A stretch of 12,007 bases of DNA, taken from contig JAGWRQ010000054.1 in assembly GCA_028869615.1 (NCBI GenBank), positions 1 to 12,007 on the forward strand, given 5' to 3'. Position numbers and translations under genes: made by a program. The notes under the pieces were generated by a model. The model ran no database searches and was not told where the DNA came from. It was given only the letters and a program-made list of their open reading frames with translations. Positions 2,340-9,813 of this stretch are shown one piece after another. This DNA comes from Candidatus Methylomirabilota bacterium. GTDB taxonomy: Bacteria; Methylomirabilota; Methylomirabilia; Methylomirabilales; Methylomirabilaceae. Each line of letters opens with the position of its first letter. Position 1 is the stretch's first letter.

Positions 2340-2591
2340 CTATTGCTTTCCTTGCTGATTGAGGAGAGCATCGATAGATTTATGAAACTCCTCCTCTGTC
2401 ATTGCCCCGTTCGAGCGTCCATATAAGTTTCGATCCCTATTGATCAGGAAGATGGTCGGTGTGCCTTAGATTTTATACAGTCTGCCGATCTCACCGACGC
2501 TGTCACGTCCTACGGGGTACGGGACCTTGTACGTTTCTACAAACCTCCGCGCGTCAGCTTCGTTATCCCAGGAGACGTTTACGCCCAGCAT
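2340..2591 (-). pseudogene. Broken partial copy of the TlpA-like thioredoxin gene
   Basis: Read on the minus strand, this block aligns without any gap to the C-terminal 83 codons plus stop of the thioredoxin-like gene at 3152-3655: 65 of 83 residues are identical (MLGVNVSWDNEADAR and so on). One codon has become TAA, where the intact gene has Glu of IEGTP, just before the cis-Pro loop. The N-terminal half, including signal peptide and active site, is absent: homology stops close to 2592. Many of the 18 differences are conservative (K/R, D/E, V/I, F/Y), so the copy probably diverged under selection before it was broken. Both copies end with a stop at the equivalent position. I see no start or SD that would express the remnant. 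Confidence 0.85.
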
Positions 2592-2600
2592 CGCGCGGCG

Positions 2601-2673
2601 CCCTCCTGTCCCTACGATACGTTGCGGAGGACAGCAGCACAAAAGAGGAGATGCCAGTCGAGGGACAGGAGGG
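2601..2673. repeat. 13-bp perfect inverted repeat enclosing 47 bp
   Basis: CCCTCCTGTCCCT (2601-2613) and AGGGACAGGAGGG (2661-2673) are perfect complements. The element starts about 10 bp from the point where homology between the two tlpA copies breaks off, and lies between the tlpA fragment and the secreted-protein gene. It has no T-run, and the loop is long for a terminator. It could be a small inverted-repeat element (MITE-like) or a recombination scar. No target-site duplication is obvious. Confidence 0.6.
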
Positions 2674-2734
2674 TCGCGGGGCGACCATGATCCGGAGAGC
2701 TCAGCCGCCCCCCGCTTCCCTCGGAGTCCCGCAG

Positions 2735-3127
2735 CTAGTACGCTCGGCTCCGCCTGGGGGCCGTCAGTGGCGTGGTCGGCGCCACCGCGCCATTCACCGT
2801 CACCTTGGCGCTGGCCTCAGGTCCGACCTCTTGGTGGCGTGTATTCGCACCGACGATCCTGACGATGTGCGGCCCGTTTGGCAGGCCCGTGAGTTCCATC
2901 GACGTCCCAAACGGCGGCCCCGGGTTAACCCCGTCCAGGTAGAGATGAATGTGGTTGACATCCCCCGCTGGCTTGAACTCCCACTGGATCACCATGCGGG
3001 AACCGATGGCTTCCCCATCCTTCGGCGACACGAGCTTGACCGTGGCCTGCTGCGCCCAGCCGACAGAGAGCCCCGCGACGAACACCACCGCGAATCCCGT
3101 CATCATCGACGTCATCGACTTTCCCAT
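2735..3127 (-). CDS. Small secreted beta-sandwich-like (Ig-like) protein
   Basis: This encodes 130 residues. ATG 3127 is chosen because AAGGAG lies 7 nt upstream; the open frame extends to 3151 but without an SD. The N-terminus is a Sec signal peptide: Lys near the start, hydrophobic TGFAVVFVAGLSVG, and a likely cleavage after GWA before QQATVKL. The mature part of ~100 residues alternates hydrophobic and polar residues (VKLVSPKDGEAIGSRMVIQW, NHIHLYLDG, PHIVRIVGANT), as in small Ig-like or Fn3-like beta sandwiches; the tail is low-complexity and basic. The NHIH motif could bind a metal, but that is speculation. It begins 24 nt after the thioredoxin-like gene and is probably co-transcribed with it, suggesting a shared envelope role. 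Exact family not recognised. Confidence 0.75.
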   Translation of the reverse strand: MGKSMTSMMTGFAVVFVAGLSVGWAQQATVKLVSPKDGEAIGSRMVIQWEFKPAGDVNHIHLYLDGVNPGPPFGTSMELTGLPNGPHIVRIVGANTRHQEVGPEASAKVTVNGAVAPTTPLTAPRRSRAY

Positions 3128-3151: not shown

Positions 3152-3655
3152 CTATGGCTTTCCTTTCTGATCGAGGAGGCCATCGATGGATCTGTGAAAC
3201 TCCTCCTCTGTCATTGCCCCGACCGAGCGTCCAAATAGGCTCCCGTCTCTATTGACCAGGAAGGTGGTCGGCGTGCCTTCGATTTGATAACGCCTGCCGA
3301 TGTCACCGGTGCTGTCGCGTCCTACGGGGTAAGGGACCTTGTACGTCTCCACAAACTTCCGCGCGTCGGCTTCGTTATCCCAGGCGACGTTCACGCCCAG
3401 CATCACGAGGCCCTTGCCCTTGTACTGCTGGTAGATTTTGGCCAGAACGGGAGACTCCCGTTGACAGTGCGGTCATTTGGAGTGGAAGAAATTGATCAGG
3501 ACCGGCTTGCCGCGAAAGTCCTTCAGCGCGATGGACTTTCCATCCAGGAGTTGCAGTGTAAAGTCCGGAACTGGCGCAGCCATGGCCGTCCTGGCGACAA
3601 GTAGTGTACCGATCAGAAAGACAATGAACCGTGCTCGTCGCAAAAGAATCCTCAT
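3152..3655 (-). CDS. Exported TlpA/ResA-like thiol-disulfide oxidoreductase, probable selenoprotein (UxxC)
   Basis: Read through its one in-frame TGA (3475-3473), this is a complete 167-residue protein. ATG 3655 has GGAGG 8 nt upstream. Residues 1-26 form a signal peptide (MRILLRRAR, hydrophobic FIVFLIGTLLVA, cleavage after AMA), so the enzyme acts outside the cytoplasm. The TlpA-type thioredoxin fold follows: PVPDFTLQLLDGKSIALKDF, then GKPVLINFFHSK (49-60), then the active site at 61-64 as TGA-Pro-His-Cys where CPHC is expected, then QRESPVLAKIYQQY, VMLGVNVAWDNE and the cis-Pro loop IEGTPTTFLVNRDG. The frame is conserved on both sides of the TGA, with no other disruption. A hairpin of bacterial SECIS type starts 10 nt after the TGA. 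Inference: TGA is read as selenocysteine, giving a UxxC redox centre. The alternative is a nonsense mutation at the catalytic cysteine. SelA, SelB, SelC and SelD are not in this window. The secreted protein downstream is probably in the same operon. Confidence 0.8.
3446..3462 (-). promoter_or_regulatory. Candidate bacterial SECIS hairpin
   Basis: On the minus strand AACGGGA-GTC-TCCCGTT forms a perfect 7-bp stem with a 3-nt loop starting with G, inside the coding sequence. Seventeen nt separate the TGA from the loop. Known bacterial SECIS elements lie just 3' of the UGA, with a small apical loop carrying a G in its first two positions and a UGA-loop spacing of roughly 16-37 nt. A possible lower helix pairs UGACC with GGCCA around an internal loop, with one mismatch. 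Confidence 0.7.
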
Positions 3656-3674
3656 ATCTGATGCCTCCGTAGTA

Positions 3675-3729: not shown

Positions 3730-5175
3730 TTAACCCAACCCATACTCTTTCCAGCGTCGGTCCACGAGGGCCTTGGTTTCGCGATCCATGACCTGTTCCT
3801 CCGGCCACTCGCGCGTGAATCCCTCCTCTTTCCATTTGCGCGTTCCGTCGATCCCCATCTTTGAGCCATACCGCGGCAGTCGACTGGCGTGATCCAGAGT
3901 TTCGACCGGGCCCATGACAAACTCGATATCGCGCTCCGGGTCGATGTGATTCAGGACCTTCCAGACCACTTCGGCCGGATCGCGGACGTTGACATCCTTG
4001 TCCACGACGACGATCACCTTTGAGAACATGGCCTGACCCAGGCCCCAGATCGCGTGCATGATCTTGCGCGCGTGGCCCGGGTAGGCTTTGTCGATACTGA
4101 CGATGACGAGGTTGTGAAAGACCCCGGCGAACGGCATATGGAAGTCCACGATCTCGGGCAACTGTTTTCTGAGGAGGGGTCGGGACAGCCGTTCCACGGC
4201 AGTCCCCATGTGGCAGTCCTCCATAGGCGGGCGGCCGACAATAGTGGTCTGGTAGATCGGATCCCGGCGATGGGTGATGGCCGTCAGGTGAAAGACGGGG
4301 TAATAGTCAGGGAGGGAGTAAAAGCCGGTATGGTCGCCAAACGGCCCCTCCAGGCGCAACTCATCCGGTTCGACGTATCCTTCCAGCACGATCTCGGCGT
4401 TGGCGGGGACCTCCAGATCGACGGTCTCGCACTGGGTAAGCTCGACGGACTGCTTCCGCAGGAAGCCGGCAACGAGCATCTCGTCGATCCCTTCGGGCGC
4501 CGGTATGACCGCCGATAGGGTGGTGGCCGGATCCGGCCCAAGGGCCACGGCGACCTCGGTGCGACGTCCCAGCCGCCGGTTCTTCTCGTAGTGTCTGGCC
4601 CCGCCGTGATGGATGTGCCAGTGCATCCCGGCTGTCCGTTCGTCGAAGATCTGCATTCGATACATGCCGCAATTGCGCGTGCCCGTCTCCGGGTCTTTGG
4701 TGAAGACTAACGGGAGCGTCACGAACCGGCCGCCGTCCAGCGGCCAGCACTTGATGGCCGGCAACAGGTCGAACGAGGGCTCTTTCGTGATGCGTACCTC
4801 CTTGCACGGGCCATCCTTCACTCGCTTGGGCAGGTAGCTCGCCATCTCCGTCAGCTTAGGCAACATCCGGAGCTTCTCGAGCCATCCCTCCGGGCTCTTG
4901 ATCTCGAGGAGGCTTTCCAGTTCCCCAGCCAGTTCGTCCAGCGAGGTGCGCTGCAATGCCACGCAGAGATGCGCCTCTGAGCCGAAGGCGTTGATCAGGA
5001 GCGGCATCGACGAACCCTTGATCTGCTCGAAGAGCAGCGTCGGTCCGAGCCGCTTGCTGACTCGATCAGTGATCTCGGTGATCTCGAGAATCGGATCGAC
5101 CTGGGTCTTGATCCGCTTCAGCAGTCCCTGCTGCTCCAGCGCCGCGATAAAGGCCCGCAGGTCCTCGTATGCCAT
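3730..5175 (-). CDS. ubiD: UbiD-family decarboxylase (prenylated-FMN dependent)
   Basis: This encodes 481 residues, close to the ~490-500 of E. coli UbiD. The start ATG 5175 has GGAG about 5 nt upstream. UbiD enzymes use prenylated FMN, made by UbiX, to remove the ring carboxylate of polyprenyl-hydroxybenzoate in ubiquinone synthesis; relatives act in menaquinone synthesis or on aromatic acids. Visible family features: N168 in RNCGMYRMQ with R173, the metal/cofactor region WHIHHGGARHY (186-196), and the acidic pair E276 and D281 in LEGPFGDHTGFY, spaced as the catalytic Glu and Glu/Asp of the family. The PPMEDCHMGTA segment follows. No ubiX or other quinone gene is present, so the substrate cannot be decided from context; ubiquinone and futalosine-type menaquinone synthesis are both possible. 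The gene stands alone between two repeat blocks. Confidence 0.92.
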   Translation of the reverse strand: MAYEDLRAFIAALEQQGLLKRIKTQVDPILEITEITDRVSKRLGPTLLFEQIKGSSMPLLINAFGSEAHLCVALQRTSLDELAGELESLLEIKSPEGWLEKLRMLPKLTEMASYLPKRVKDGPCKEVRITKEPSFDLLPAIKCWPLDGGRFVTLPLVFTKDPETGTRNCGMYRMQIFDERTAGMHWHIHHGGARHYEKNRRLGRRTEVAVALGPDPATTLSAVIPAPEGIDEMLVAGFLRKQSVELTQCETVDLEVPANAEIVLEGYVEPDELRLEGPFGDHTGFYSLPDYYPVFHLTAITHRRDPIYQTTIVGRPPMEDCHMGTAVERLSRPLLRKQLPEIVDFHMPFAGVFHNLVIVSIDKAYPGHARKIMHAIWGLGQAMFSKVIVVVDKDVNVRDPAEVVWKVLNHIDPERDIEFVMGPVETLDHASRLPRYGSKMGIDGTRKWKEEGFTREWPEEQVMDRETKALVDRRWKEYGLG

Positions 5176-9463: not shown

Positions 9464-9813
9464 GGGGGCGCTCTGGTTTCGACGGGGACAAGGGGGTAAG
9501 GGCTGCGTGCCGAGGACCCATCGCCTCGTAAAAAGGTGGGGATACAAGCAACTGCCAACCACGAATTGGCACTGGCTGCCTAAGGGTGGCCACGTCCACC
9601 CCGCTTCGCTCGTTGGGCGGGATCTGGGCGCCGACTAAACGGGCTGGCTTGCCTCCCTCGCTCTAGGGAGGCGGGTAAGATCGCATGAGCTAGCCGCTCC
9701 GGGACCCCGCCTGTGGGGGCCCAGAGAGGCGAATGTTCATACGCAGGCTACGCACGTAGATGCACTTTCCGACATGTTCTCGGACGCGGGTTCGATTCCC
9801 GCCGCCTCCACCA
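9464..9813 (+). ncRNA. ssrA: tmRNA (transfer-messenger RNA)
   Basis: This is a one-piece tmRNA of 350 nt. The 5' end GGGGGCG pairs with CGCCTCC at 9803-9809 (one G-U), forming the tRNA-like acceptor stem, followed by A and an encoded CCA (9811-9813). The 5' motif CTCTGGTTTCGACGGGG and the T-arm GCGGGTTCGATTCCCGC are characteristic. The tag reading frame resumes at GCA 9548 and ends with TAA at 9583, encoding ATANHELALAA, a degradation tag ending in the Leu-Ala-Ala type recognised by ClpXP. The segment 9584-9770 contains the GC-rich pseudoknot region. Its partner smpB is immediately upstream. Confidence 0.97.

Follow-up and report, generated by a model that had tools for sequence, protein, structure and literature searches.

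Introduction

By sequence profile, the best match among solved structures to the gene examined here is of the ResA/StoA type of Bacillus. Bacillus ResA carries the motif CEPC, whereas the protein encoded at this locus would have selenocysteine (Sec) in the place of the first Cys, within the motif U-P-H-C. The family NF041054 also comprises a Sec-containing ResA-like protein, but its motif is UGC and not UxxC as in the present case. DsbE/CcmG and TlpA, which act in the maturation of cytochrome c or oxidase, belong to the same superfamily, but no gene for cytochrome maturation was present among the ten neighbours tested.

UxxC thioredoxin-like selenoproteins were already listed in the Sargasso Sea and GOS surveys (PMC1088965, PMC2398784, according to the accessible parts of both papers). 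In the accessible part of a 2026 review (PMC13188914), the UxxC thiol-disulfide isomerase-like, Trx-like 1 and Prx-like families are listed with Sec replacing the first Cys of CxxC (Table 1), as predicted here, and a Methylomirabilota MAG is cited for its 63 predicted selenoprotein genes. Compared with the catalogued UxxC families as they are described in that part of the review, the gene stands out by its U-P-H-C motif and by an exact TGA-plus-hairpin pattern that was confined to one order among 95 genomes. A literature search, with thin coverage of subscription journals, returned no description of this gene.

The gene is located in a stretch of 12,007 nucleotides, which was analysed as a whole and is referred to as the window. 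The host assembly is a MAG of 2.06 Mb in 278 contigs, with 99.79% completeness and 7.85% contamination, and belongs to the Methylomirabilota, a phylum that includes the methane oxidisers dependent on nitrite.

Results

A thioredoxin-like frame interrupted by a single TGA

The original prediction described an intact reading frame in which a TGA replaces the first Cys of a CPHC active site, without giving its strand. The frame is on the minus strand (Table 1), and between its ATG and its TAG the only interruption is the TGA at codon 61. When this codon is read as U, the product is MRILLRRARFIVFLIGTLLVARTAMAA...FFHSK-U-PHCQRESPVLA...GTPTTF..., whose start, MRILLRRARFIVFLIGTLLVARTAMAA, resembles a signal peptide as judged by eye. 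With U entered as C, the Pfam domains PF00578 AhpC-TSA (94.1 bits, cut-off 26) and PF08534 Redoxin (86.6 bits, cut-off 26.6) both extend across the TGA, so that the frame is thioredoxin-like on either side of it, as had been proposed, and the protein scores above the Pfam gathering thresholds of the AhpC-TSA/Redoxin (thioredoxin-like) superfamily. In an alignment of 31 sequences, 23 of them Sec-type and with U entered as C, position 61, C64, E67, P69 and P129 (in GTPTT) were invariant. The signal peptide (by eye), the good Shine-Dalgarno sequence and the cis-Pro loop (as expected for the fold) of the original prediction agree with the features in Table 1, and the predicted division of the gene by automatic annotation was reproduced with translation table 11, which gives two ORFs of 60 and 84 aa. 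Scans for promoters and terminators gave results at chance level only.

Table 1. Coordinates of the Sec gene, its parts and other features (positions in the window unless a genome or stretch is named)
Feature	Position	Strand	Details
Sec-containing ResA/TlpA-like thioredoxin gene (predicted)	3152..3655	minus	167 codons + TAG; TGA-as-U translation, Pfam, orthologues
Predicted Sec codon TGA, residue 61, position one of U-P-H-C	3473..3475	minus	
Cys64 of U-P-H-C, putative resolving Cys	3464..3466	minus	invariant in 31-sequence alignment; role as in family
Pro129, expected cis-Pro of thioredoxin fold	3269..3271	minus	invariant in 31 sequences; cis geometry as in family
Signal-peptide-like N-terminus, about residues 1-26	3578..3655	minus	translation read by eye
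Shine-Dalgarno-like GGAGG	3664..3668	minus	8 nt ahead of ATG (3655)
Bacterial-type SECIS hairpin, AACGGGA-GTC-TCCCGTT	3446..3462	minus	loop GTC, 17 nt from TGA
UbiD-family decarboxylase gene, directly upstream of Sec gene	3730..5175	minus	Pfam UbiD, 285.8 bits
Downstream gene, 138 aa	2735..3151	minus	secretion-signal-like start by eye
Decayed 3'-half duplicate of Sec gene, behind 138-aa gene	2346..2735	minus	in-frame TAA
AAA_14/DUF4143 ATPase gene, 480 aa	824-2266		Pfam
tmRNA gene	9464-9813		tag ANHELALAA
98-nt tRNA, own genome	L001:1501-1598 = G000:C9:2638-2735		
98-nt tRNA, congeners	G007:C49:3626-3723; G008:C3:50105-50202; G014:C18:9326-9423		

Relationship to ResA and probable function

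Among solved structures, those of ResA are the nearest by sequence profile (4nmu, 154.6 bits), and DsbE-type, TlpA-type and other thioredoxin-family structures rank below them. The best NCBIfam match is ResA as well (NF002854), although its 107.6 bits are below the cut-off of 170; scores below cut-off were also obtained with TIGR00385 (DsbE; 64.0 bits, cut-off 123.15) and with the ResA-like WAxxUGC selenoprotein model NF041054 (42.9 bits, cut-off 300), the motif here being UPHC. In addition, the genome contains a gene for a CcdA-like membrane protein (33.5 bits, cut-off 27.1). Because ResA is nearest by profile and ranks first in NCBIfam, and because a CcdA-like gene is present, we favour a role in reduction, and the protein is probably an extracytoplasmic thiol-disulfide reductase, its place, substrate and direction being judged from sequence. 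A Sec protein acting in oxidation, like DsbA, or in the reduction of peroxides, rather than of disulfides, is a possible but doubtful alternative. It would agree with the best Pfam matches, which are to the peroxiredoxin-type families AhpC-TSA and Redoxin, and with the Pro-His pair between the two redox residues, which is the dipeptide of DsbA and fits an oxidase too, but the ResA matches and the CcdA-like gene speak against it.

Selenium machinery and tRNA-Sec

The original prediction had named selA, selB, selC and selD as the genes to be sought, and a complete absence of the first three as evidence against it. In the host genome, selA (599.2 bits), selB (380.9 bits) and a piece of selD truncated by the end of its contig (259.8 bits) score above their cut-offs, while the sole candidate for selC is a 98-nt variant, the 91-nt form of the congeners not being found. 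The selD piece itself reads SHGAG-U-ACK at an in-frame TGA, and one TGA was present in the best selD match of 20 out of 21 genomes. As the assembly has 7.85% contamination, another member of the MAG could be the source of the selenium genes, yet selA was found in all 14 other congeners; among the control genomes, one of 14 exceeded the selA cut-off.

The 98-nt variant is the only tRNA-Sec match of the host genome over the Rfam cut-off of 47 (56.4 bits), a value that five of 14 control genomes pass too. It is a class-II tRNA with an apparent 7/5 acceptor/T fold and the loop CUUCAAA, in which the anticodon UCA is read from the Rfam alignment; ARAGORN assigns it no type and a two-base anticodon. 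Since ARAGORN does not type it and control genomes exceed the same cut-off, this match carries little weight by itself. The 98-nt tRNA occurs in four of the 15 genus genomes, with 95-98% identity, and in none of 16 others, and in the three contexts read it is near a gene that we take to be formaldehyde-activating-enzyme-like.

DNA comparison detected no copy of the congeners' 91-nt tRNA-Sec in this assembly. It is present in ten of the 12 other congeners examined, two of which (G007 and G008) have the 98-nt form as well, and the TGA gene is kept in nine of the ten, all but G010. We ascribe the missing 91-nt tRNA-Sec to incomplete assembly and consider it less likely that the 98-nt tRNA takes over its function. 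In view of the control genomes and of the ARAGORN result, it is unlikely that the 98-nt UCA tRNA delivers Sec in this species in place of the 91-nt tRNA-Sec; if it did, the selenium code would run here on an unusual tRNA.

It is very improbable that the UGA is read by a system other than that for Sec, for instance by a suppressor in which the 98-nt UCA tRNA carries another amino acid. This idea draws on the fact that the only UCA tRNA found here is the 98-nt one, with its apparent 7/5 fold and no type from ARAGORN, but this tRNA was not seen in 11 of the 15 genus genomes, and the 91-nt tRNA-Sec accompanies the TGA gene in nine congeners. Moreover, the hairpin behind the UGA, described below, matches the SelB-type SECIS model, and the classical Sec motif is present in selD of this genome. 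Within the order, TGA terminates many members of this gene family, so that UGA also serves as a stop.

Conservation of the TGA among relatives

A search of 60 genomes, including that of the host, yielded orthologues with 70-88% identity and TGA as the lone in-frame stop in 13 of 14 congeners, and a codon-by-codon check placed the TGA at U61 in all 13. G010, which is 83% complete, was the sole congener of the 14 in which the gene was not found. Among the matches listed, the gene also occurs in three further families of the order, with 41-55% identity, and of the 32 rows that span the site at 43% identity or more, 31 show TGA; the only other row (G028:C155, 44% identity) has Cys. Distant proteins of 25-40% identity (L020, L056-L075) were left out of these counts, and neither a second occurrence of the window gene (L019) nor genomes already counted (L051-L055) were counted anew. 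An in-frame UGA is found at the position of a redox Cys and is conserved as UGA or Cys, as expected of a bacterial selenoprotein gene.

Of 95 genomes searched in the phylum, 29 contain the exact pattern of TGA and hairpin, and every one of these is among the 35 of the window's order; a reversed-pattern control gave 0 matches. In 26 of the 29 pattern-bearing genomes, selA was over the cut-off; the remaining three (G021, G032 and G033) are 64-76% complete. Wherever both values could be computed, dN was much lower than dS, ahead of the TGA as well as behind it. The original argument that a chance nonsense mutation would be unlikely to strike this codon agrees with the presence of TGA there in every one of the 13 congeners that bear the gene, which places its position beyond chance, and the alignment of homologues proposed at that time revealed the TGA at the same codon in relatives, without scattered stops or frameshifts.

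Two sets of sequences were used for the study of the hairpin. The first consists of 34 sequences, namely the window gene (L018), the TGA-bearing matches of L022-L049 (L036 twice) and the copies L091, L092, L095 and L097; as it was picked for TGA, the presence of TGA in 34 of 34 is no test. The second set, of 44 sequences, adds ten more distant Sec genes (L101-L110) among the matches listed. These were drawn from 11 rows below 41-43% identity with one TGA, again among the matches listed, ten of which have the TGA at the active site (in L109 one alignment column off); in the eleventh, L100, the TGA simply terminates the frame and the site is occupied by Cys.

The ten distant genes are thioredoxin-like Sec genes with motifs that include UPFC, UGYC, UPTC and UPKC, and they have a hairpin of the same kind with partly different stems. 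Some members of the phylum have several Sec thioredoxin-like genes per genome. Among the distant, uncounted proteins, two acidobacterial peroxiredoxin-like frames (L064:3001-3366 and L068:3001-3366) have a TGA elsewhere than at U61, in TPG-U-T, possibly for Sec at the peroxidatic site. A Gemmataceae frame (L075:3001-3165) has its TGA in GSFT-U-GPYR, aligned to U61; it belongs to another kind of protein, presumably a deiodinase-like selenoprotein, and was not counted either.

A SECIS-type hairpin behind the TGA

The DNA behind the TGA can form a hairpin of the bacterial SECIS type that the original prediction did not mention and that is conserved at silent sites and covarying. In the window its stem has 7 bp (6 bp in the window's own minimum-energy fold), and the 48 nt from the UGA fold at -12.5 kcal/mol, small adjacent stems counted in. 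The loop starts with GG or GU at 17 nt from the UGA, and the bacterial SECIS model has a spacing of 16-37 nt in the accessible part of the review (PMC13188914). As a single sequence the window hairpin is unremarkable, with a z of -1.42 and 20 of 200 shuffles equally stable.

In the 34 Sec-type sequences, five pairs of the stem are invariant, one is AU, GU or GC and the outermost is broken in four, and the loop is GGC in 24 sequences and GTC in 10. Within the genus (14 sequences), codons +4 to +10 differ only where the encoded residue does. The six-codon window from +5 to +10 ranks first of 110 for silent conservation, in the 14-sequence and the 34-sequence sets alike, and dS was 0 over codons +4 to +10 in all 12 congeners compared, while it ranged from 0.29 to 2.46 over codons +11 to +99.

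Covariation was assessed with five measures and 500 shuffles on the 44-sequence set, which contains 33 distinct sequences. In the 44 Sec-type genes, 97.4% of the stem cells were paired versus 85.5% in the shuffles, none of which was as high (0/500), and double-changed cells numbered 27 versus 6.6 (sd 3.0) in the shuffles, again with 0/500 as high (33 distinct sequences). When the stem was slid by 1-3 columns, only 41.6-55.8% of the cells were paired in the same 33 sequences. Two measures were not beyond the shuffles: four stem pairs were changed on both sides (20/500 shuffles as high) and there were seven further types of stem pairs (145/500 as high).

In two homologues with Cys the hairpin is missing. 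The codon at the site is TGC in L099 (44.5% identity), whose sequence does not form it, and L050 (36%) has Cys at the site and a different 48-nt fold (-22.3 kcal/mol); in the DNA examined, the hairpin therefore goes with the TGA. A further homologue, P0005 (47%), has Cys at the site, as read from the protein sequence alone.

Neighbouring genes and a decayed copy

The UbiD gene was found beside the Sec gene in 12 of 14 genus loci, window included. Of the two loci without a visible UbiD, one is at a contig edge and the other is a stretch cut at the gene, for which L052 shows UbiD. Outside the genus this neighbour was absent (0/5 loci), so UbiD says little about function. The downstream partner gene of the original prediction does exist and encodes a protein of 138 aa with no Pfam or NCBIfam match, but it is not a constant partner, being present in only five of the 14 genus loci, window included, against 12 for the upstream UbiD gene. 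Pfam searches with ten chosen neighbours in relatives revealed neither a cytochrome-maturation gene nor a function, and no conserved neighbour in the genus loci or in the five loci outside names a substrate. The AAA_14/DUF4143 gene had one weak match of 24% as its only counterpart in the locus stretches of relatives. In a phage collection, all 16 matching records (five of them among the matches listed) were below 60% identity, and there is hence no sign in it of a phage-borne gene.

The decayed duplicate behind the 138-aa gene shares 85% DNA identity with the intact Sec gene over 254 nt, and its 5' half, with the active site, is unrecognisable. It is nearest to the genus orthologues, with up to 81% protein identity (L023), and further from the second Sec copies of G006 (61%) and G001 (58%). 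This copy is separate and has no bearing on the intact gene.

The existence of this TAA-bearing duplicate next door demonstrates that copies of the gene decay here, and could suggest that the gene itself is a pseudogene in which a nonsense mutation made the TGA a real stop. Such a reading is scarcely tenable, as 13 congeners and members of three further families in the order share the TGA at this codon, the sequence behind it is under purifying selection and the SECIS hairpin is conserved and covarying. An error of sequencing or assembly that hides a Cys codon, conceivable in a MAG of 278 contigs with 7.85% contamination, has a negligible probability, for the same codon is found in other assemblies, including the single-contig genome G005. 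Both readings were rejected on the evidence of the orthologues.

Discussion

Since close relatives keep both the TGA codon and the RNA signal, we regard the gene as that of a real selenoprotein, and UGA61 of this predicted exported ResA/TlpA-like thioredoxin is very probably decoded as selenocysteine, a view based on comparison of sequences. In the mechanism that we propose, SelB with Sec-tRNA would bind the hairpin located 17 nt downstream of the UGA, with insertion of Sec instead of termination. Judging from its N-terminus, the mature protein would be located outside the cytoplasm, where, by analogy with the family, Sec61 would attack and Cys64 would resolve the mixed selenide-sulfide. Its probable task would be to reduce or reshuffle disulfides of exported proteins, for example c-type cytochromes or copper proteins, and its recharging may depend on a membrane protein of the CcdA/DsbD type, one of which is encoded in the genome.

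The gene is a fresh example of the already catalogued UxxC thioredoxin-like selenoproteins. As these are catalogued and a Methylomirabilota selenoproteome of 63 genes has been reported, it represents a known type and not a new class. The original prediction held that exported proteins of this kind are rarely noticed. For UxxC selenoproteins as such this is contradicted by the catalogue, but for the present gene it has some basis in the databases, where six of the 24 protein matches (P0002-P0004 and P0006-P0008) have a length of only 94-96 aa; both of those that were read start behind the TGA. As at least some of the deposited copies are thus fragments lacking the active site, the enzyme can escape proteome searches.

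In a phylum with a very large reported selenoproteome (PMC13188914, accessible part), the hairpin provides a ready search pattern for more Sec genes. Altogether, our results indicate that one order of the Methylomirabilota has retained Sec as an active-site residue in an exported enzyme acting on disulfides, together with an RNA signal that is conserved at silent sites.
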